Source: a virus
DNA: 29,145 bases
IMG/VR virus record: IMGVR_UViG_3300021354_000026
Span: 1 to 29,145 of that record
Reading direction: 5' to 3' (one strand)
In this document: in pieces, positions 2,689 through 18,038 of the stretch
How positions within the stretch are numbered: position 1 is the stretch's first letter
Layout of the letters: every line of letters begins with the position of its first letter
Position numbers and translations under genes: made by a program
The notes under the pieces: model-generated
What the model was told of the DNA's origin: nothing
The model's database searches: none
Seen by the model: only the letters and a program-made list of their open reading frames with translations

Positions 2689-2852
2689 GCAAACACACTA
2701 AATCAGATCGTTATATCAAATGGTTATTACTTTTCGCTGCCTTATACTTTTTAGGGCATATGGTAGCGGCAGTGGCGCAGAGTAACCCGCCACCCCCAAC
2801 CATCCGATGTATACCAGCGGGTGGTGGCACAGTGACCTGTTTTCCTATCTGA
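2685..2852 (+). CDS. small exported or membrane-anchored protein, 55 aa
   Basis: Starts in an ATGA overlap. Basic N-terminus, hydrophobic core WLLLFAALYFLGHMVAAVAQ, then a short Pro-rich segment with two cysteines (RCIPAGGGTVTC). This looks like a signal peptide or signal anchor with a small periplasmic tail whose cysteines could form a disulfide. It ends the leftmost operon and overlaps the minus-strand HNH gene tail-to-tail by 8 nt. Function unknown; a small host-envelope effector is one possibility. Confidence 0.6.
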   Translation: MSKHTKSDRYIKWLLLFAALYFLGHMVAAVAQSNPPPPTIRCIPAGGGTVTCFPI

Positions 2853-3222
2853 CAGCGCTATGCTTGAGCATAAATTCGTAGATGGCTTTATGCTCACTCA
2901 TGGTACCATCATTCTTGATTCTGTTTGCCCTATTGGATAACCAAATAACATTACCAACAATGTAACCCAACTCAGGAATTATTCTGTCTATTGTGGGTGA
3001 GTTATCGGAATGTGATTGGCCTTGAACACACCAAGACAATGGTGTGTCAAAAATAGGACAACAATCAGGAGCTATTGACTCAATGTATTCAAGAGTTAAG
3101 TTAAAAGGGATATTGTATTTTTTAGCGTGGTGCTTACGAGCATGAAATCTTTTATAGATATGACCCGATTTTGTGCTCATCAGGTTATTGTTGTTTCTTT
3201 GGCCTATTGTTAGGTTTTGCAT
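2845..3222 (-). CDS. HNH endonuclease, 125 aa, on the opposite strand
   Basis: Free-standing homing-type nuclease. Residues 55-60 (CCPIFD) begin the beta-beta-alpha-metal fold. Residues 76-105 carry the signature PTIDRIIPELGYIVGNV followed by WLSNRANRIKNDG, which I recognise from many phage HNH proteins (D79, R80, N91, N100). It is the only minus-strand gene in the left 22.9 kb. A TGGAG site lies about 9 nt upstream of the start. It has its own copy of the phage promoter motif at 3316-3330 and a structured leader. It lies head-to-head with the primase gene and overlaps the preceding plus-strand gene by 8 nt at its end. Confidence 0.88.
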   Translation of the reverse strand: MQNLTIGQRNNNNLMSTKSGHIYKRFHARKHHAKKYNIPFNLTLEYIESIAPDCCPIFDTPLSWCVQGQSHSDNSPTIDRIIPELGYIVGNVIWLSNRANRIKNDGTMSEHKAIYEFMLKHSAVR

Positions 3223-3250: not shown

Positions 3251-3315
3251 TGTAGATAGGTTAGTCCTCGATACTGGCAAAGACAAAGTTTTCGAACACT
3301 CTGTCCCTATCTACA
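3251..3315 (-). promoter_or_regulatory. structured 5' leader of the minus-strand HNH mRNA
   Basis: TGTAGATAGG at 3251-3260 is the exact reverse complement of CCTATCTACA at 3306-3315, immediately downstream of the minus-strand promoter motif. Inside it, GACAAAG (3282-3288) pairs with CTCTGTC (3299-3305), with one G-U pair in the RNA. The transcript would therefore begin with a two-tier hairpin 28 nt before the start codon. The TGGAG site is outside the stem, so an effect on stability or elongation is as likely as translational control. Confidence 0.5.
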
Positions 3316-3330
3316 TATAATAATACAAAG
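3316..3330 (-). promoter_or_regulatory. phage promoter motif, minus-strand copy
   Basis: Read on the minus strand this is CTTTGTATTATTATA, matching the consensus TTTTGTATTATTATA at 14 of 15 positions, followed by TGTA, which also fits the extended consensus NGTA. It points toward the HNH gene starting at 3222, about 90 nt away. No recurrent -35 element is seen upstream. Confidence 0.75.
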
Positions 3331-3363: not shown

Positions 3364-3514
3364 TTTCACATCGTGGTAAAGTGCAAGGGTTGCAGGGGTT
3401 GCGAGGCTTAAAACCAGTTACTCCATACTTTTATTTTTTATTTTTTAAAAATATCAAAAAGAGTAAATAAGGTCTGCAACCCCTGCAACCCTTGCACTTT
3501 TTCATCATGTGAAA
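3364..3514. repeat. large nested inverted repeat with AT-rich centre; replication origin candidate
   Basis: Arms 3378-3402 and 3476-3500 are a perfect 25-bp inverted repeat (left arm begins AAAGTGCAAGGGTTGC). Outside them TTTCACAT (3364-3371) pairs with ATGTGAAA (3507-3514) across symmetric 6-nt internal loops. Inside, TTACTC (3418-3423) faces GAGTAA (3461-3466) around the palindrome ATTTTTTAAAAAT (3440-3452). The left arm also reads as near-tandem 9-mers TGCAAGGGT, TGCAGGGGT, TGCGAGGCT. It lies between two divergent phage promoters and directly upstream of the primase-helicase gene. Iteron-like arms, an easily melted centre and that neighbour suggest an origin; a bidirectional terminator or operator is the alternative. 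Confidence 0.7.
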
Positions 3515-3529
3515 CGCAACCCCCCGAAA

Positions 3530-3544
3530 TTTTGTATTATTATA
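3530..3544 (+). promoter_or_regulatory. phage promoter motif upstream of the primase-helicase gene
   Basis: Exact copy of TTTTGTATTATTATA, followed by GGTA. The primase ATG is 19 nt downstream, with GAAAGGA between as ribosome binding site. TGTGAAACGC lies just upstream at 3508-3517 and recurs in the leader at 15189. Confidence 0.8.
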
Positions 3545-3563
3545 GGTAGATTGAAAGGATTAC

Positions 3564-5870
3564 ATGACTAACAAGCCATTTTGCTTACCAGTAGAGCTGA
3601 CCAACATCCCCTTAGAGCTAAGAAGTGTGCCTAGGTGGGTGATGTGGTCATTCGTCGAGGTAGGCGACCAAGAAAACAAGCGATGGGCTAAGATGCCCCT
3701 ACAAACAACCGGACGATATGCCTCGTCCACCGACCCCAAAACATGGACAGACTTTATTGCTGTAGAGCAGGCATACAATACCAACAAATTCGATGGTGTG
3801 GGTTTTGTGTTCAGTGAGGACGACAATTTAGTAGGCGTCGACTTAGATGATTGCTATGACCACCTCAATGCCCGTTTCATAAATGCTGCAATGCAGCAAT
3901 TAGCCAATCAAATTGACGGGTATATGGAGGTTAGTCCATCGGGCACTGGTGTGAAGATATTCACGCGCTCTGACCCGTTTGCATCACACGCTGACCACGC
4001 AATTGGGTTTGAGGCCTACTCTAAGGGTAGGTTCTTTACAGTAACAGGCAGACACCTAACAGGCGCGATTCCCCAGGACGCTCAAGACCTAACAAGCGTT
4101 ATACCTGAGCGCACCCTGCGCTCGACGGGTGATGCGTTTGGTGACTATGTGGCCCCAGTAGATAACTGGGATATTACCCGCGTGGAGGCCGAGCTGTTAT
4201 CTAAGCTAGATCCTGAGTGTGGCTACCATGAGTGGCTTAAGATAGGCGCTATGCTGCATCACCAGTTCTCAGGCGATGTAGAGGCCTGCGAGGCGTGGGA
4301 TAGATGGAGCTCACAAGGTGCAAGTTACTCATCGACGGGTGACTACTCCTGCGAGGCCAAGTGGAAAACATTTAAGGGATCAGGCGCCACGCTACGCTCT
4401 CTTATCTTCTTAGTGAACAGTCAAACACGAAAGGAGGCGCTCGCTCGAGGAGAAATCGTGCTGGACTCGGGCGCGATGAATCATGCACGAACATTCCTGG
4501 ACGGGTACTATACTAGCGAGGAAGGCTACTCATTGGTGCACTACGCAGATGATTTCTTTATCTACGTTGGCACACACTATGAGGTTATCGAGGAGGCAAC
4601 CATTCGCTCTAAGGTATACGCATTCTTAGATAAGTGTAAGAAACCGGCCAAGCAGGGATCACTGGCACCATTCAACCCATCACCGGCAACTGTCAGTGGT
4701 GCGATTGATGCCATTAAGTCGATTGTGCACTTAGCCAATCATCCCAACACTAAGCCGCCGATTTGGTTAGAAGATTATTCTGCTGCTAAACCGAACGCCT
4801 CCAAGTTGGTATCCCTGCGCAATGGTATTTTTCATTTAGAAGACAGCATTATGCTGCCGCATTCGTTGGGGTTTTTTACTCAGAACTCATTACCCTTTGA
4901 GTACAATCCAGCGGCAACATCACCAATATGGGATCACTTCTTACAATCAGTATGGCCGGACGATTCAGAATCTATTGAATGCCTACAAGAAATGTTTGGT
5001 TATATTCTATCGGGAGATACAAGGCAGCAAAAATTCTTTAACATTATCGGACCACGTCGCTCAGGTAAGGGTACGATTAACAAGGTGCTCGTTGCCTTAT
5101 TAGGACAACACAACACAGTGGCACCCGAGCTAGGAGAACTATGTGATACCTTTGGTTTGCAGCCTTGGCTGGGTAAGCTCCTCGCTTCTTTTACTGACGC
5201 AAGAGCGCCTGAACGAAATAGATCTGCTGTTGTATCTCAGCTCCTTCGTATTGTGGGTGGTGACACCATTACTGTCAACCGCAAGAACAAAGAGAGTTGG
5301 AATGGTTATTTGCCTACTCGTCTTGTCATATATAGTAACGAGGTATTACAGTTAACTGAGAACTCCAACGCGCTCACTGGCCGCATGATCGTACTAAAGA
5401 TGACCAAGTCATTCTTTAACAAGGAAGACACCGACCTGTCACACAAGCTAGAGCAAGAGCTCAGTGGTATTTTTAACTGGGCGATGGAGGGGCTAAAGCG
5501 CAGACTAGCGCGTGGTGGTCATTTTGTACAACCACAGTCAGGCAAGGAGTATTTAAACCTGATGGCCGAGCTGGGTAATCCAATTGGTACGTTTGTGGAG
5601 GATGCGTTAGAGTTTGACCCTAAAGCATTTGTTAAGAAGGAAGACGTATTCTCTGCGTTCAAGCACTGGGCACTTAAGAAGTCAATGACCCCAGGAACTG
5701 AGCAGGCATTTAAGCGTAGGTTCCTAGCAGCAACGCAGGAGCAGTGCGTGAAGGCCGACCAGGTGCAGGTACAGGGCGAACGCATGAACGTATACCAAGG
5801 CATTCGGTTTAATGAGAAGGCACAGAAGTACATTGACTCAATCGAAACATTTGACGAAGGAATATTTTAA
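3564..5870 (+). CDS. PrimPol - PriCT-2 - D5/SF3 helicase replication protein, 768 aa
   Basis: Replication initiator combining primase-polymerase and hexameric helicase. The N-terminal PrimPol domain (about 1-190) has the metal-binding GVDLDD (91-96), SPSGTGVKIF (124-133) and FEAYSKGRFFTVTGR (149-163). A PriCT-2-like domain follows (about 205-285, CGYHEWLKIGAMLHHQF). A D5_N-like linker leads to the SF3 ATPase with Walker A GPRRSGKGT (496-504, K502), a Walker B-like segment LLASFTDAR (539-547) and VIYSNEVLQL (588-597). Length and order match P4-alpha/D5-type primase-helicases. It has its own promoter copy and adjoins the origin candidate. Its TAA overlaps the next ATG by one base. Confidence 0.93.
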   Translation: MTNKPFCLPVELTNIPLELRSVPRWVMWSFVEVGDQENKRWAKMPLQTTGRYASSTDPKTWTDFIAVEQAYNTNKFDGVGFVFSEDDNLVGVDLDDCYDHLNARFINAAMQQLANQIDGYMEVSPSGTGVKIFTRSDPFASHADHAIGFEAYSKGRFFTVTGRHLTGAIPQDAQDLTSVIPERTLRSTGDAFGDYVAPVDNWDITRVEAELLSKLDPECGYHEWLKIGAMLHHQFSGDVEACEAWDRWSSQGASYSSTGDYSCEAKWKTFKGSGATLRSLIFLVNSQTRKEALARGEIVLDSGAMNHARTFLDGYYTSEEGYSLVHYADDFFIYVGTHYEVIEEATIRSKVYAFLDKCKKPAKQGSLAPFNPSPATVSGAIDAIKSIVHLANHPNTKPPIWLEDYSAAKPNASKLVSLRNGIFHLEDSIMLPHSLGFFTQNSLPFEYNPAATSPIWDHFLQSVWPDDSESIECLQEMFGYILSGDTRQQKFFNIIGPRRSGKGTINKVLVALLGQHNTVAPELGELCDTFGLQPWLGKLLASFTDARAPERNRSAVVSQLLRIVGGDTITVNRKNKESWNGYLPTRLVIYSNEVLQLTENSNALTGRMIVLKMTKSFFNKEDTDLSHKLEQELSGIFNWAMEGLKRRLARGGHFVQPQSGKEYLNLMAELGNPIGTFVEDALEFDPKAFVKKEDVFSAFKHWALKKSMTPGTEQAFKRRFLAATQEQCVKADQVQVQGERMNVYQGIRFNEKAQKYIDSIETFDEGIF

Positions 5871-6635: not shown

Positions 6636-7159
6636 TGTCACATCAATCTCAATTAGATTTTGTAGCGCGTGTGTGCGATAAGTTTCCAAAGCAGTTTGTT
6701 AACAGCAAGGTGCTCGAGGTGGGTTCACTAAACATCAACGGCACTGTTCGTATCTTCTTTCAAGACTGCAACTACACTGGCATTGACGTGGGTTTGGGCA
6801 AGGACGTTGATGTAGTATGCCCAGCCCATGAGTTTGAGGCAGAGCCAAATAGTTTTGATACCACAATCTCATGTGAGTGCTTTGAGCACGATAAGTATTG
6901 GGTGCGCTCGTTTAAGAAAATGTATGACTTAACTAAGCCAGGGGGCATTGTTGTTTTCAGCTGCGCCACTACCGGCAGACCTGAGCATGGCACCACACGC
7001 ACCAGCCCAGCCGATGCGCCGTTTACTAACGACTACTACCGCAACCTAACAGCAGAAGACTTTGAGGGCGCATTTGATTTGTACGACATGTTCAGTGAGT
7101 ATGAGTTTCAAACCTGCCAATGGCCAGCAGATCTTTACTTTTATGGCGTTAAAAAATGA
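6635..7159 (+). CDS. class I SAM-dependent methyltransferase, 174 aa
   Basis: Motif I is VLEVGSLNINGTVR (from residue 26), the acidic residue after strand beta-2 is D51 (YTGIDVG), and FDTTISCECFEHD (74-86) with LTKPGGIVVFS match the Methyltransf_11-type Rossmann fold. There is no DPPY or NPPY motif, so an N6-adenine DNA methylase is unlikely; a small-molecule, sugar or peptide acceptor fits better. It is coupled to the glycosyltransferase-like gene upstream, suggesting they act on one substrate, and ATGA-coupled to the basic protein downstream. Confidence 0.85.
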   Translation: MSHQSQLDFVARVCDKFPKQFVNSKVLEVGSLNINGTVRIFFQDCNYTGIDVGLGKDVDVVCPAHEFEAEPNSFDTTISCECFEHDKYWVRSFKKMYDLTKPGGIVVFSCATTGRPEHGTTRTSPADAPFTNDYYRNLTAEDFEGAFDLYDMFSEYEFQTCQWPADLYFYGVKK

Positions 7160-7399: not shown

Positions 7400-7597
7400 A
7401 TGGAATTATATAAATTAAAACGTGGTGATAACTTCAAGGTCATTGACGAAGAGACCAAGGTGCCACCAGCCGCGCCACAACCAGCCGACAACGTAACGTA
7501 CAAGTACACCCACGTCGATGGCATGTACGCACCATGTCAGGGGACAGACGGAGAGCGATACTACTTTGCCGCATGGACAGAGGTGGAAAAGGTATGA
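7400..7597 (+). CDS. hypothetical protein, 65 aa
   Basis: ATG with AGGAGATAGC upstream. The protein has a Pro/Ala-rich linker (KVPPAAPQPADN), then VTYKYTHVDGMYAPCQGTDG and an aromatic ending YYFAAWTEVEKV, suggesting a small beta domain. Its stop overlaps the first gene of the modular array as ATGA. Function unknown. Confidence 0.7.
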   Translation: MELYKLKRGDNFKVIDEETKVPPAAPQPADNVTYKYTHVDGMYAPCQGTDGERYYFAAWTEVEKV

Positions 7598-8100
7598 ACG
7601 CAAATGAACTAGCTGATGTATTAGAAAACATCACAACTTACAAAGAAGCAGAACATGACATATTTTCTGACAAAGAAAAACTAACAGAAGCAGCCACCAC
7701 GCTACGCCAGCAACAAGTACGAATTGAACAACTACTAGAAACACAGGACTACTTGTATAAAAGGCACGACAAGCAACAAGCCGAAATAGAAGCGTTGAAA
7801 TTGCGTGTTGGGGCTGTCAAATTAACCAATAGTCAGCTTGTAGACTTGGTGCAGTTACATCGTGAAGAGGCAGAAAAGATGCGTAACGAGATACTGGCAT
7901 GGGAAAACGCTGAAGTGCCTGCTGAGGTAATGGCAGAAACAATAGTGGAATTGGAAAAGCGAGGCTTTATTACCCATCCAGCAGACTTAACAGATGAGGA
8001 AATAATGCAAGAGTGGACTTGGAAATACTCAGACTGTTTTGAGGATTTTTTGCTTCAATTTGCTAGAGCAATACTAAGAAAGGCACAAGAGAATGGCTGA
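7594..8100 (+). CDS. modular coiled-coil protein, 168 aa (array gene 1)
   Basis: I start it at the ATG in the ATGA overlap because the first eight residues (MNANELAD) recur at the starts of the genes at 9338 and 9550. Module order: MNANELAD head; LRQQQ segment and QQAEIEALK coiled coil (about residues 30-110); HPADLTDEEI; tail FARAILRKAQENG. It is the longest and most complete member of the array. No enzymatic motif. The coiled coil suggests oligomerisation or partner binding. Confidence 0.75.
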   Translation: MNANELADVLENITTYKEAEHDIFSDKEKLTEAATTLRQQQVRIEQLLETQDYLYKRHDKQQAEIEALKLRVGAVKLTNSQLVDLVQLHREEAEKMRNEILAWENAEVPAEVMAETIVELEKRGFITHPADLTDEEIMQEWTWKYSDCFEDFLLQFARAILRKAQENG

Positions 8101-8278
8101 TATAACAATGTGTCGTGATGAAACCTGTAAGAAGCGTGAGAGGTGTTATCGCTTTACTGCTAGGGCTACACCAGAGTACCAGTCTTACTTTGTGGATAGC
8201 CCAAGACAAGGTAAGGATTGTAAATACTTTAGTGATAACGAGGATAAGACTAAACGACTAAGGAAGAACTGCGAATGA
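8093..8278 (+). CDS. cysteine-rich small protein, 61 aa (array gene 2)
   Basis: Five cysteines lie in TMCRDETCKKRERCYRF and, further on, KDCKYF plus a terminal NCE. This looks like a small metal-binding fold. It carries none of the array modules but sits between modular genes, overlapping the previous gene by 8 nt and the next by 4 nt. Function unknown. Confidence 0.72.
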   Translation: MADITMCRDETCKKRERCYRFTARATPEYQSYFVDSPRQGKDCKYFSDNEDKTKRLRKNCE

Positions 8279-8628
8279 ACAATGAACCAGTAGCGTGGAT
8301 GCTTGCAGACAAAGAAAGTGAATATATCCGTAGCATTATGGCGGTTCAACATGATTTTGTTCCTGAAGGATGCGTTGAAATTCCACTCTACACCCATCCA
8401 GAAAAAGAACTACACCTATCACTTCAAAAAAGTAAAGAAACGGGTGAACTGCTAGCTGTTACTTATACAGATGATGAGCATAGGATTGTGGAAGTGTTAT
8501 GGAAAAAACCACCAGCAAAGACACTAACAGATGAGGAAATATTGCAAGTTCGTAAAGATTTAGATTGGGAAACTGATGAATGGATTGATTTTGCTAGAGC
8601 AATACTAAGAAAGGCACAAGAGAAATGA
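8275..8628 (+). CDS. modular EPVAW/LTDEE protein, 117 aa (array gene 3)
   Basis: Module order: MNNEPVAWM head, IPLYTHP, KTLTDEEILQVR and tail FARAILRKAQEK. The EPVAW...LYTHP...LTDEE pattern is familiar from many small, mosaic accessory proteins of Proteobacteria phages (Ea22-like), which have no established activity. The head matches the gene at 8825 and the tail matches those at 7594, 8825 and 9237. ATGA junctions at both ends. Confidence 0.75.
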   Translation: MNNEPVAWMLADKESEYIRSIMAVQHDFVPEGCVEIPLYTHPEKELHLSLQKSKETGELLAVTYTDDEHRIVEVLWKKPPAKTLTDEEILQVRKDLDWETDEWIDFARAILRKAQEK

Positions 8629-8828
8629 AGTCTGATAAGAAAAACATAAGCCAAGATTCATTGGAAAACCTATTGATTGTTTTGATGAATTGCAAAGATA
8701 AAGATGGTTTGTTGTTGAACATAAACCCAGCCAATGCGTTTCAAGACTGGTTAATTGATATGTATCCTGAGTCTATGCGTCAGCATTGGTTTAATTTACA
8801 TACCTATGTAAAGGAACAAGAGAAATGA
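8625..8828 (+). CDS. small protein with shared terminal module, 67 aa (array gene 4)
   Basis: Unique body (SLENLLIVLMNCKDKDGLLL, then FQDWLIDMYPESMRQHWF). It ends in VKEQEK from GGAACAAGAGAAATGA, a variant of the tail module shared by its neighbours. ATGA-coupled both sides. Function unknown; the shared ending suggests insertion of a new body into a conserved junction. Confidence 0.68.
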   Translation: MKSDKKNISQDSLENLLIVLMNCKDKDGLLLNINPANAFQDWLIDMYPESMRQHWFNLHTYVKEQEK

Positions 8829-9058
8829 ACGATGAACCAGTGGCGTGGGCTAGAGAAGATGGTGTTATTGCTTTTCACAAACAAAAAGAAGTGGATAGTC
8901 AAGGATTTAAATGGTTTCCACTCTACACCCATCCAGCAAAGACACTAACAGATGAGGAAATAATCAAAGTAAATGAAGATATTGGGACTTGTTGGGATGT
9001 TCCTCATAGGTTTGCAATTCAAATTGCAAGAGCAATACTAAGAAAGGTACAAGAATGA
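8825..9058 (+). CDS. modular EPVAW/LTDEE protein, 77 aa (array gene 5)
   Basis: Short paralogue of the gene at 8275: MNDEPVAWA head, FPLYTHPAKTLTDEEI, then IARAILRKVQE. It has lost the middle insert present at 8275, so the two differ mainly by module content. Overlaps both neighbours by ATGA. No catalytic motif. Confidence 0.73.
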   Translation: MNDEPVAWAREDGVIAFHKQKEVDSQGFKWFPLYTHPAKTLTDEEIIKVNEDIGTCWDVPHRFAIQIARAILRKVQE

Positions 9059-9240
9059 ATGCTCACACACATTGTTGGCACTCAACAAATACAATGCTTT
9101 GCTCTATGCCACCACAAAGAGTAGAAGTTTGCTGTGTTTGCGGAGAAAAAAGAAACTTGGTAATTAAAAGCATGGAAGATAACCCTGAAGGACATGGGCA
9201 GTTTCACCCAAATGCGATAAGAAAGGCACAAGAGAAATGA
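9055..9240 (+). CDS. putative zinc-ribbon small protein, 61 aa (array gene 6)
   Basis: Contains HCWHSTNTMLC near the start and VCCVCGEKRN, whose CxxC pair and flanking His/Cys could hold a zinc ion. The end is AIRKAQEK, the shared tail module. ATGA overlaps at both ends. Function unknown. Confidence 0.7.
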   Translation: MNAHTHCWHSTNTMLCSMPPQRVEVCCVCGEKRNLVIKSMEDNPEGHGQFHPNAIRKAQEK

Positions 9241-9341
9241 TATATCTGTTAATTGGATTGCATATTACATTTTTTGTTGTAGCAGGATTTTTGGCTGGAT
9301 TATTGTATTCAATGGCAATACTAAGAAAGGCACAAGAATGA
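9237..9341 (+). CDS. 34-aa single-pass membrane protein ending in the array tail module (array gene 7)
   Basis: The frame starts at an ATG overlapping the previous stop and reads MIYLLIGLHITFFVVAGF, continues hydrophobic to about residue 25, then ends SMAILRKAQE. The C-terminal nine residues match the tail of the soluble neighbours almost exactly at DNA level. ATGA junctions on both sides make it very likely to be translated. It would place the shared tail on the cytoplasmic or periplasmic face of the membrane. Confidence 0.65.
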   Translation: MIYLLIGLHITFFVVAGFLAGLLYSMAILRKAQE

Positions 9342-9553
9342 ACGCAAATGAACTAGCTGATAAGTTGATGTCAAACCTTACTATGGAATACGACTGCGAT
9401 AAGTATATGGAACAAGCCGCCACCATGCTACGCCAGCAAAAAGCTGAAATAGAACGCTTAATAGGTGCTGAACCAATAACCTATGGGATGCTTACTGTCT
9501 GTAAAAATTGCGGACAACAGAATCCTTATTTTGAAAAGGCACAAGAGAAATGA
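9338..9553 (+). CDS. modular protein with coiled coil and CxxC, 71 aa (array gene 8)
   Basis: The first 24 nt are identical to the start of the gene at 7594 (MNANELAD). Then AATMLRQQKAEIERL (coiled coil), VCKNCGQQNPYF (possible half zinc site) and the tail EKAQEK. ATGA junctions on both sides. Confidence 0.73.
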   Translation: MNANELADKLMSNLTMEYDCDKYMEQAATMLRQQKAEIERLIGAEPITYGMLTVCKNCGQQNPYFEKAQEK

Positions 9554-9753
9554 ACGCAAATGAACTAGCTATTTTATTGGAAGTGGATAGTTGGTACAAG
9601 CTGGTAACTAGAGAAGAAATAGCCAACATGCTACGCCAGCAACAAGCTGAAATAGAGGCGTTGAAAGACATTATGGTGGCCGCAATTAAGGCGGGTGACT
9701 GGATTGTTGACGGGGCTTGTGACCCAGACCAATACATTGGAGATAGATTATGA
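9550..9753 (+). CDS. modular coiled-coil protein, 67 aa (array gene 9)
   Basis: Head MNANELA shares 21 nt with the genes at 7594 and 9338. The middle NMLRQQQAEIEALK is the shared coiled-coil module. The C-terminus (GDWIVDGACDPDQYIGDRL) is unique and the tail module is absent. ATGA-coupled. Confidence 0.73.
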   Translation: MNANELAILLEVDSWYKLVTREEIANMLRQQQAEIEALKDIMVAAIKAGDWIVDGACDPDQYIGDRL

Positions 9754-10223
9754 AAACAGCATACCAAATAGCTGATGAATTGGAAGAGCGCAATGCTCCG
9801 TATGAAAACGATACGGCCAACTTTATACGCCAGCAACAAGCTGAAATAGACCAACTAAACTATGACCTTGATGGATTCAAACAGAACTTTTTTGTTAGCG
9901 GATTTCACTTGCAAATCAAGATGGCTAACGAACAGTTGGTAAAGCAACAAGATGAAATAGAGGCGTTGAAAAAGCGATGCTTGGATGAAATATTTAACAG
10001 AACATACGCAGATCGCAGCGCAGAGGTGATGTGTGAGTATTGGGAATTGGCACAGGCTGAAGTAGATGGACTAAAGGTGCGCATTGAGCGCATGATTGAA
10101 AAAGCAAGCCACCACGAAGCTCTTGCACACGCCGGTGGTTTTGAGGCTGGCAGGCAACAAGGCATGAAGCAAGAGCGGGCATTGTGGAAACTAGCCGCGT
10201 CAACACAGGAGATTGAGAAATGA
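9750..10223 (+). CDS. long coiled-coil protein, 157 aa (array gene 10)
   Basis: Head MKTAYQIADELEER, then FIRQQQAEIDQLNYDLDGF and a second KQQDEIEALKKR, so the coiled-coil module occurs twice. The rest is predicted helical (QAEVDGLKVRIERMIEKA). It ends in STQEIEK. Probably a rod-like scaffold or adaptor. Same junction style as its neighbours. Confidence 0.75.
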   Translation: MKTAYQIADELEERNAPYENDTANFIRQQQAEIDQLNYDLDGFKQNFFVSGFHLQIKMANEQLVKQQDEIEALKKRCLDEIFNRTYADRSAEVMCEYWELAQAEVDGLKVRIERMIEKASHHEALAHAGGFEAGRQQGMKQERALWKLAASTQEIEK

Positions 10224-13576: not shown

Positions 13577-13767
13577 GTCATTTTATTGTAGAGCATAGGT
13601 ACAAAGGTAACTATGTTATGGAAAGTATCACTGGTGTGGAAGACATTGACACTAGCCGGTATGAAAATCTACTAGGTATTTGGGTTTGCGATAGCTTTGA
13701 GGAAATGCAAACCATGGAAAAAGAACTTAAGGAGATGAGACATGCACGATCCAGTCAATCATCCTAG
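13573..13767 (+). CDS. hypothetical protein, 64 aa
   Basis: ATGA overlap with the preceding gene. It opens MSHFIVEHRYKGNYVMESI and ends with a charged helix (FEEMQTMEKELKEMRHA). The 3' end overlaps the next gene by 26 nt and holds its GGAGATGAG ribosome binding site. No family recognised. Confidence 0.65.
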   Translation: MSHFIVEHRYKGNYVMESITGVEDIDTSRYENLLGIWVCDSFEEMQTMEKELKEMRHARSSQSS

Positions 13768-17890: not shown

Positions 17891-18030
17891 GCACATGGTT
17901 AATAGCAGCAATGGGTGTGGTGTACTTTGTCGTGGCCATCGACCAATTTTATAAAGGTGGCCTTGGCACAGGCATCATGTTTTTAGGATATGCCATGGGC
18001 AACGTAGGATTGGTCATGGTAGCTAAGTAG
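17887..18030 (+). CDS. small membrane protein, 47 aa, GTG start
   Basis: Begins at GTG in a GTGA overlap after GGAGGCACT. Two hydrophobic helices: TWLIAAMGVVYFVVAI and Gly-rich GIMFLGYAMGNVGLVMVA, joined by DQFYKGGLGT. Probably an inner-membrane protein; function unknown. Confidence 0.65.
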   Translation: MSTWLIAAMGVVYFVVAIDQFYKGGLGTGIMFLGYAMGNVGLVMVAK

Positions 18031-18038
18031 GAGCTATT

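Follow-up and report, generated by a model that had tools for sequence, protein, structure and literature searches.

The window analysed here is the entire IMG/VR record IMGVR_UViG_3300021354_000026 (29,145 bases), and its gene content is that of a tailed-phage-like genome. Its products include a PrimPol-helicase, a SNF2-type helicase, a DUF2800 nuclease, an Enc34-type ssDNA-binding protein, a class II ribonucleotide reductase and a family-A DNA polymerase. The PrimPol-helicase gene (3564-5870, + strand), which encodes the proposed initiator, comprises AEP, PriCT-2, a D5_N/DUF5906 SF3 helicase and a C-terminal winged helix; the closest PDB sequence match of the protein is 7ola, titled ‘DNA primase’. 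No PrimPol with at least 60% identity was found among the cultured phages of the collection searched. A search of genome contigs gave four matches, two of them in betaproteobacterial MAGs, which is too few for a host claim. A short distance upstream of PrimPol lies a gene resembling a sigma factor (1572-2144, + strand; phrog_351; Sigma70 regions 2 and 3). Further along, a series of small ORFs (~7534-10223, + strand) shares the start MNANELA... and the end ...ARAILRKAQE, and probably represents a tandemly duplicated gene family of unassigned function.

Directly before the PrimPol-helicase gene lies a nested inverted repeat, and all the components listed in the initial annotation are present. 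The perfect 25-bp arms (AAAGTGCAAGGGTTGCAGGGGTTGC; left 3378-3402, + strand; right 3476-3500, - strand) are separated by 73 nt and embedded in a 44-nt pair (3359-3402/3476-3519) that is 86% complementary. The outer 8-bp pair, TTTCACAT (3364-3371, + strand) and ATGTGAAA (3507-3514, - strand), belongs to a flanking motif of the type TTTCACA..TGTGAAA, which is enriched near the elements of relatives. It has the same centre (3439-3442) as the inner 6-bp pair, TTACTC (3418-3423) and GAGTAA (3461-3466). An outermost pair (3309-3329, + strand; 3531-3551, - strand) extends over 21 nt at 95% and is centred at 3430. Its left arm contains TAATAATACAAA, and its right arm the AT-rich, promoter-like TTTGTATTATTATA, which recurs directly before PrimPol in relatives. 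On the upstream side the element adjoins an HNH/endonuclease VII-like gene (phrog_3322; 2845-3222, - strand). This gene is absent from the inspected upstream sequences of relatives and, judged from sequence, is probably a homing-type insertion next to the candidate origin.

The suggestion that the arms also read as 9-bp iteron-like repeats is correct, and the pattern is stronger than had been claimed, with three tandem units in each arm. The left iteron arm (3382-3408, + strand) consists of TGCAAGGGT (3382-3390), TGCAGGGGT (3391-3399) and TGCGAGGCT (3400-3408), as defined by sequence, placement and period-9 autocorrelation. The right arm (3470-3496, - strand), assigned by sequence and placement, consists of TGCAAGGGT (3488-3496), TGCAGGGGT (3479-3487) and TGCAGACCT (3470-3478). 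Between them lies the AT-rich core of about 61 bp (3409-3469; 84% AT), T-rich on the left and A-rich on the right of the + strand, a composition like that seen in 47 relatives. This core is a probable unwinding element.

The repeat is not a product of chance: it reaches an inverted-repeat score of 35.5, whereas the highest among 20 dinucleotide shuffles was 11.0. It is the top inverted repeat of the window, in which no other of comparable strength was found. Folded as single-stranded DNA, the element reaches z = -10.3, and none of 200 shuffles was as strong. Nor does a coding gene explain it, as no ORF of at least 60 aa spans the element. The claim of ‘divergent promoters’ fared less well. For the copy next to PrimPol this setting is not conserved, being absent from the relatives' upstream sequence inspected, and it holds in the window only because the minus-strand HNH-type gene sits upstream. 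No sigma-70-like promoter adjoining the element and no intrinsic terminator at it (short GC-rich stem, small loop, T-run) were found, and an Rfam search of the element returned no family above the gathering score, with sub-threshold miRNA hairpins only. These three readings were dropped, as nothing convincing emerged for any of them.

The conservation of the element was examined at 40 loci from a PrimPol search and in 80 of the 330 encoding stretches given by an alignment search. Most of the roughly 80 relatives first examined that have enough upstream DNA carry the layout upstream of PrimPol, and wider scans revealed further elements of the same layout (element-score cutoff 29.5; best of 60 shuffled loci 27.0). 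In 47 non-redundant phages, 27-bp arms flank a spacer of median 63 (interquartile range 62-65), the core has a mean AT content of 82%, T being in excess towards its left end and A towards its right, and the mean autocorrelation at 9 nt is 0.71, compared with 0.19-0.29 at other periods. Short-unit arrays flanking an AT-rich region are found in the window and in its relatives alike.

In contrast to the layout, the unit sequence is phage-specific. Examples are TGCAGGGGT, AGTATGGGT, AGTCACAGT, ATCCATAGT and AGACACAGA, and the relatives add TGCTAGGGT, AGACAGGGT, AGTACTAGT, TGTCACACT and ATCCGATGT. Arms agree at 21 of 27 positions within one phage and at 13 of 27 between phages, the within-phage values being somewhat favoured by the search because the placement score rewards pairing and periodicity. 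Among relatives, the third unit matches less well from left to right (0.66) than units one and two (0.82-0.86). Compensatory arm changes, which the initial annotation had proposed to look for, are seen: the arms stay complementary as their sequence shifts.

The position of the element is not uniform. In a marine clade found by further searches, such elements as were located lie about 4-6 kb upstream of PrimPol rather than adjoining it, and in many marine relatives the 6 kb scanned contained just a distal copy or no copy at all. None was detectable in the scanned DNA of L112, L113, L119 and L121, and in cultured relatives (21-32% identity) no 9-bp element near PrimPol stood clearly above shuffles. 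In Marinobacter phage PS6 (L124), GTCCC-containing repeats are inverted about an AT-rich stretch at ~5095-5259, downstream of PrimPol. These repeats, which score weakly (27.5; shuffle maximum 26.0), are a possible cultured counterpart of the element. In two relatives, L029 (4992-7295) and L115, the PrimPol frame is broken or untranslatable from the assumed start, reflecting either an assembly error or a true disruption.

A large stem-loop whose structure is conserved and whose sequence is little conserved stands beside the AEP-SF3 gene. It could be argued that this stem-loop, as an extruded cruciform or a transcript hairpin, is what matters in a structural origin or RNA element, and that the arms vary under a complementarity constraint alone. 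Such a reading would account for the arm complementarity kept despite sequence change and for the strong fold, and has precedent in pRN1 and BIP-1. In addition, units in mirror-image positions resemble each other more closely (0.84) than non-mirrored units do (0.73), as measured with a detector that favours pairing, which suggests that pairing may matter too. However, pure pairing predicts neither units in common with a copy kilobases away nor covariation with a protein domain, both described below. Arms that pair poorly and still hold valid units (L072, L074 and L011, with a register shift in L009/L024) also speak against it, as do the lack of an Rfam family above threshold and of a terminator. 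We therefore consider this explanation rather unlikely.

Most long relatives carry two copies built from the same unit, one directly upstream of PrimPol and the other 5-11 kb away, the distal copy usually lying between a leftward and a rightward gene block in a divergent arrangement. Such pairs occur in G002 (35254-35376 and 44484-44606), G003 (8510-8632 and 13630-13745), G004 (42273-42381 and about 48.4 kb), G005 (6804-6928 and 17912-18032) and G006 (44418-44537 and 51174-51390). They also occur in G001, whose second copy is divided between both contig ends, and in G009, with one full copy and a half copy at the right contig end. Scan matches within long repetitive coding genes (e.g. G003 53-57 kb) were set aside. 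The arms of the two copies are near-identical and the flanks diverge at once; both copies are largely intergenic and lie ahead of genes. G008 has one copy, on a contig that starts just 5 kb upstream of PrimPol, and no clear copy was found in G007. The window, in which the element is preceded by no more than 3.4 kb, contains no second copy.

Two copies per genome, each with the look of terminal inverted repeats, might recall a functionless mobile repeat of the MITE type, or else chance. This is hardly credible for a layout that is conserved at comparable places in diverged phages despite different sequence, and that covaries with PrimPol. Iteron arrays also serve parS and some packaging sites, and the contigs of G001 and G009 terminate within an AT core, in or beside the distal copy of the element, as a partition, packaging or terminus site made of iterons might. 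However, ends in a homopolymer-rich core are as expected for assembly breaks at a two-copy repeat, which these probably are, and G003 has a different terminal overlap of 101 nt. Moreover, the covarying protein is a primase-helicase and not a partition or terminase protein, which makes such a site very improbable.

Several short motifs cluster around the elements of relatives, some of them mirrored on both sides. A AATCAAGGACTTA-type motif occurs 35 times near elements and 6 times far from them, TTTCACAWTGTGAAA 26 and 13 times, and TAACTAAAAGTAATA 7 and 2 times. A Fur-box-like palindrome, TGAGAATNATTMTCA, was observed near the elements of L009, L010, L011, L020, L029, L056, L064, L080, L087, L093 and G006, in most cases at a distance of 90-110 bp from the centre of the core (in L020, 60-74 bp). 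It occurs 13 times in the 24.5 kb that lie no more than 250 bp from an element, and 6 times in 418 kb elsewhere. This palindrome could reflect an unexpected link of iron regulation to a phage origin, or be the site of a phage regulator.

The clustering of AATCAAGGACTTA, TGAGAATNATTMTCA and the conserved TTTCACA..TGTGAAA around the element, together with the mostly intergenic location of the copies in front of genes, would also suit an operator or enhancer array. Here PrimPol or another phage regulator would bind the iterons to regulate early promoters at the two copies, and the array would play no part in the start of replication. Since both copies lie in likely promoter regions, an operator role is possible, and it may exist alongside origin function. 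On its own it leaves the fixed layout of two inverted arrays around an AT core unexplained, and it is with the replicative primase-helicase that the iterons covary, a protein with a domain resembling an origin-binding domain. As the sole function it is unlikely.

The relation between iterons and initiator was assessed by comparing arm distance with the distance of each PrimPol domain with adjustment for the remainder of the protein (partial Mantel). Only the C-terminal winged helix (residues 681-768; 5604-5867, + strand) stands out among the domains, its divergence tracking that of the iterons (r=0.416; 0/5000 permutations), and a sliding window places the peak at residues 721-750 (r=0.49). 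Shared ancestry can inflate partial Mantel tests. In control comparisons, 1000 divergence-matched column sets drawn from residues 1-650 reached at most 0.156, none equalling the winged helix, and the best contiguous 88-residue window outside it gave 0.213. By a k-mer measure, the arms (0.33) exceed the core (0.18) and the flank DNA (0.11). In 17 held-out relatives the winged helix was again the top domain (r=0.365; 0/2000), followed by PriCT-2 at 0.27. Physical linkage predicts the wrong domain, as about 2.1 kb separate the coding region of the winged helix from the element, whereas that of the AEP domain is closer. In a sister-pair test every distance grows with divergence, so that the domains cannot be told apart. 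At the residue level, position 714 pairs with unit positions 6-8, and 733/735 with 3-5, in a suggestive, lineage-dependent way; held-out relatives break the 714 rule, so that no recognition code is claimed. A cognate specificity between the C-terminal domain of the initiator and the iterons is suggested by this covariation of sequences, and the proposal that the PrimPol winged helix reads the iterons is well supported, if indirectly.

An AlphaFold2 model of residues 651-768, built from 43 relatives (pLDDT 82), places the recognition helix at 713-723 and the wing strands at 730-736 and 739-749. The covariation peak maps to the end of the recognition helix and the wing. The closest structural neighbours of the model are the DNA-binding domains of RFX1 (Z 10.8) and RFX5 (10.6), the origin-binding domain of phage P4 (1ka8; Z 9.1, 84 residues aligned, 2.8 A) and, from a further PrimPol-helicase, the tail of AsfvPrimPol (Z 8.2). 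RFX1 contacts DNA chiefly through its wing. The D5_N/DUF5906 matches and the model together describe an SF3-helicase initiator with a C-terminal winged-helix DNA-binding domain. A full-length AlphaFold model was poor (pLDDT 58) and was left unused, the C-terminal model being used alone.

We propose, with a probability of about 0.72, that the element serves as a replication origin, or belongs to a pair of initiator-binding cis sites, in a dsDNA phage with a self-loading PrimPol-SF3 helicase. This reading is the best supported because the inverted iterons and AT core are conserved, a second copy has the same units, the winged helix covaries with them and its fold resembles the P4 origin-binding domain. 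The candidate origin bound by the primase-helicase, as put forward in the initial annotation, therefore stands as the preferred explanation, without its ‘divergent promoters’ and without the GC-skew inflection that had been named beforehand as a check. The window has none at the element, and across the window and nine long relatives' contigs GC skew follows the direction of the genes and does not inflect consistently at either copy.

Initiation might then proceed as follows. The winged helix of each PrimPol subunit would read one 9-mer through the wing and the start of the recognition helix, and the facing arrays would load two helicase hexamers head to head. Both hexamers would melt the T-rich/A-rich core, the AEP domain would prime the exposed strands, and the family-A polymerase (PolA) of the phage would extend the primers into two forks. 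Hexamer loading, core melting and origin function are inferred here from P4, SaPI/SCCmec and pRN1 (PMC7581432, PMC4234260). With iterons specific to each phage, an initiator would be held to its own genome during mixed infections. More tentatively, and at somewhat less than even odds, we suggest a co-evolving inverted-iteron pair, an ori with a distant crr-like partner. Its 9-bp code, near-identical within a genome and diversifying fast between phages together with the PrimPol wing region, would set up mutually exclusive replication specificities, perhaps out of competition in mixed infections. If so, dozens of natural initiator-iteron pairs would become available for studying DNA reading by SF3 initiators and double-hexamer loading, and the same pairs could show whether diversification of replication specificity serves to exclude rivals. 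For a large group of uncultivated phages, the analysis yields a predicted origin, a predicted initiator and matched site-protein pairs, all from sequence.

Like the long relatives studied here, satellite phage P4 has two distant cis sites, ori and crr. In its system (ori1/crr and alpha), as in the present one, the primase-SF3 helicase is self-loading and has a winged helix at its C terminus; that of P4, an origin-binding domain, has the same fold (1ka8, Z 9.1), and repeats occur at the origin in both. However, P4 alpha has a Toprim primase in place of the AEP (PMC4234260), and, unlike in P4, every site here has a short AT core flanked by the two halves of an inverted 3+3 array, with units that vary from phage to phage. 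In the SaPI and SCCmec Cch2 systems, the C-terminal domain of a D5-type helicase binds short iterons, and loading of two hexamers has been proposed (PMC7581432). Those origins lie downstream of rep, whereas here one copy lies upstream of PrimPol and another is distal; the 9-bp iterons and the phage's own family-A polymerase are further differences.

In pRN1, a stem-loop near the PrimPol-helicase gene is required for replication. Origins of this type, proposed also for Bordetella phage BIP-1, consist of an inverted repeat of about 100 nt, conserved in structure and little in sequence (PMC4234260). As here, pRN1 combines an AEP-SF3-winged helix initiator with an inverted repeat adjoining its gene. 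It is described as lacking iterons, and no specific binding was seen; in contrast, the arms in the phages studied here are iterons with 9-nt tandem units, which sets them apart from the pRN1 type, covary with the protein and occur twice. The NrS-1 phage primase-polymerase has an AEP and a C-terminal region related to those here, and two recognition sites on opposite strands at its genome centre are a suggested origin (PMC7102993). Those are single 8-nt sites known as a priming recognition sequence, unlike the present arrays.

Iteron origins read by the C-terminal domain of a self-loading helicase were thus already known (SaPI, SCCmec Cch2, P4), and a fast-changing stem-loop beside an AEP-SF3 gene had already been proposed as an origin (pRN1, BIP-1). 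We found no earlier description of the element in the open-licence literature searched. New are the inverted 3+3 array of 9-bp units, the two same-unit copies, the wide diversity of units within one phage group and the covariation with the winged helix. Iteron origins (P4, SaPI) and stem-loop origins (pRN1, BIP-1), which are separate in the literature, are brought together here, and the stem-loop of these phages may be a by-product of facing iteron arrays.
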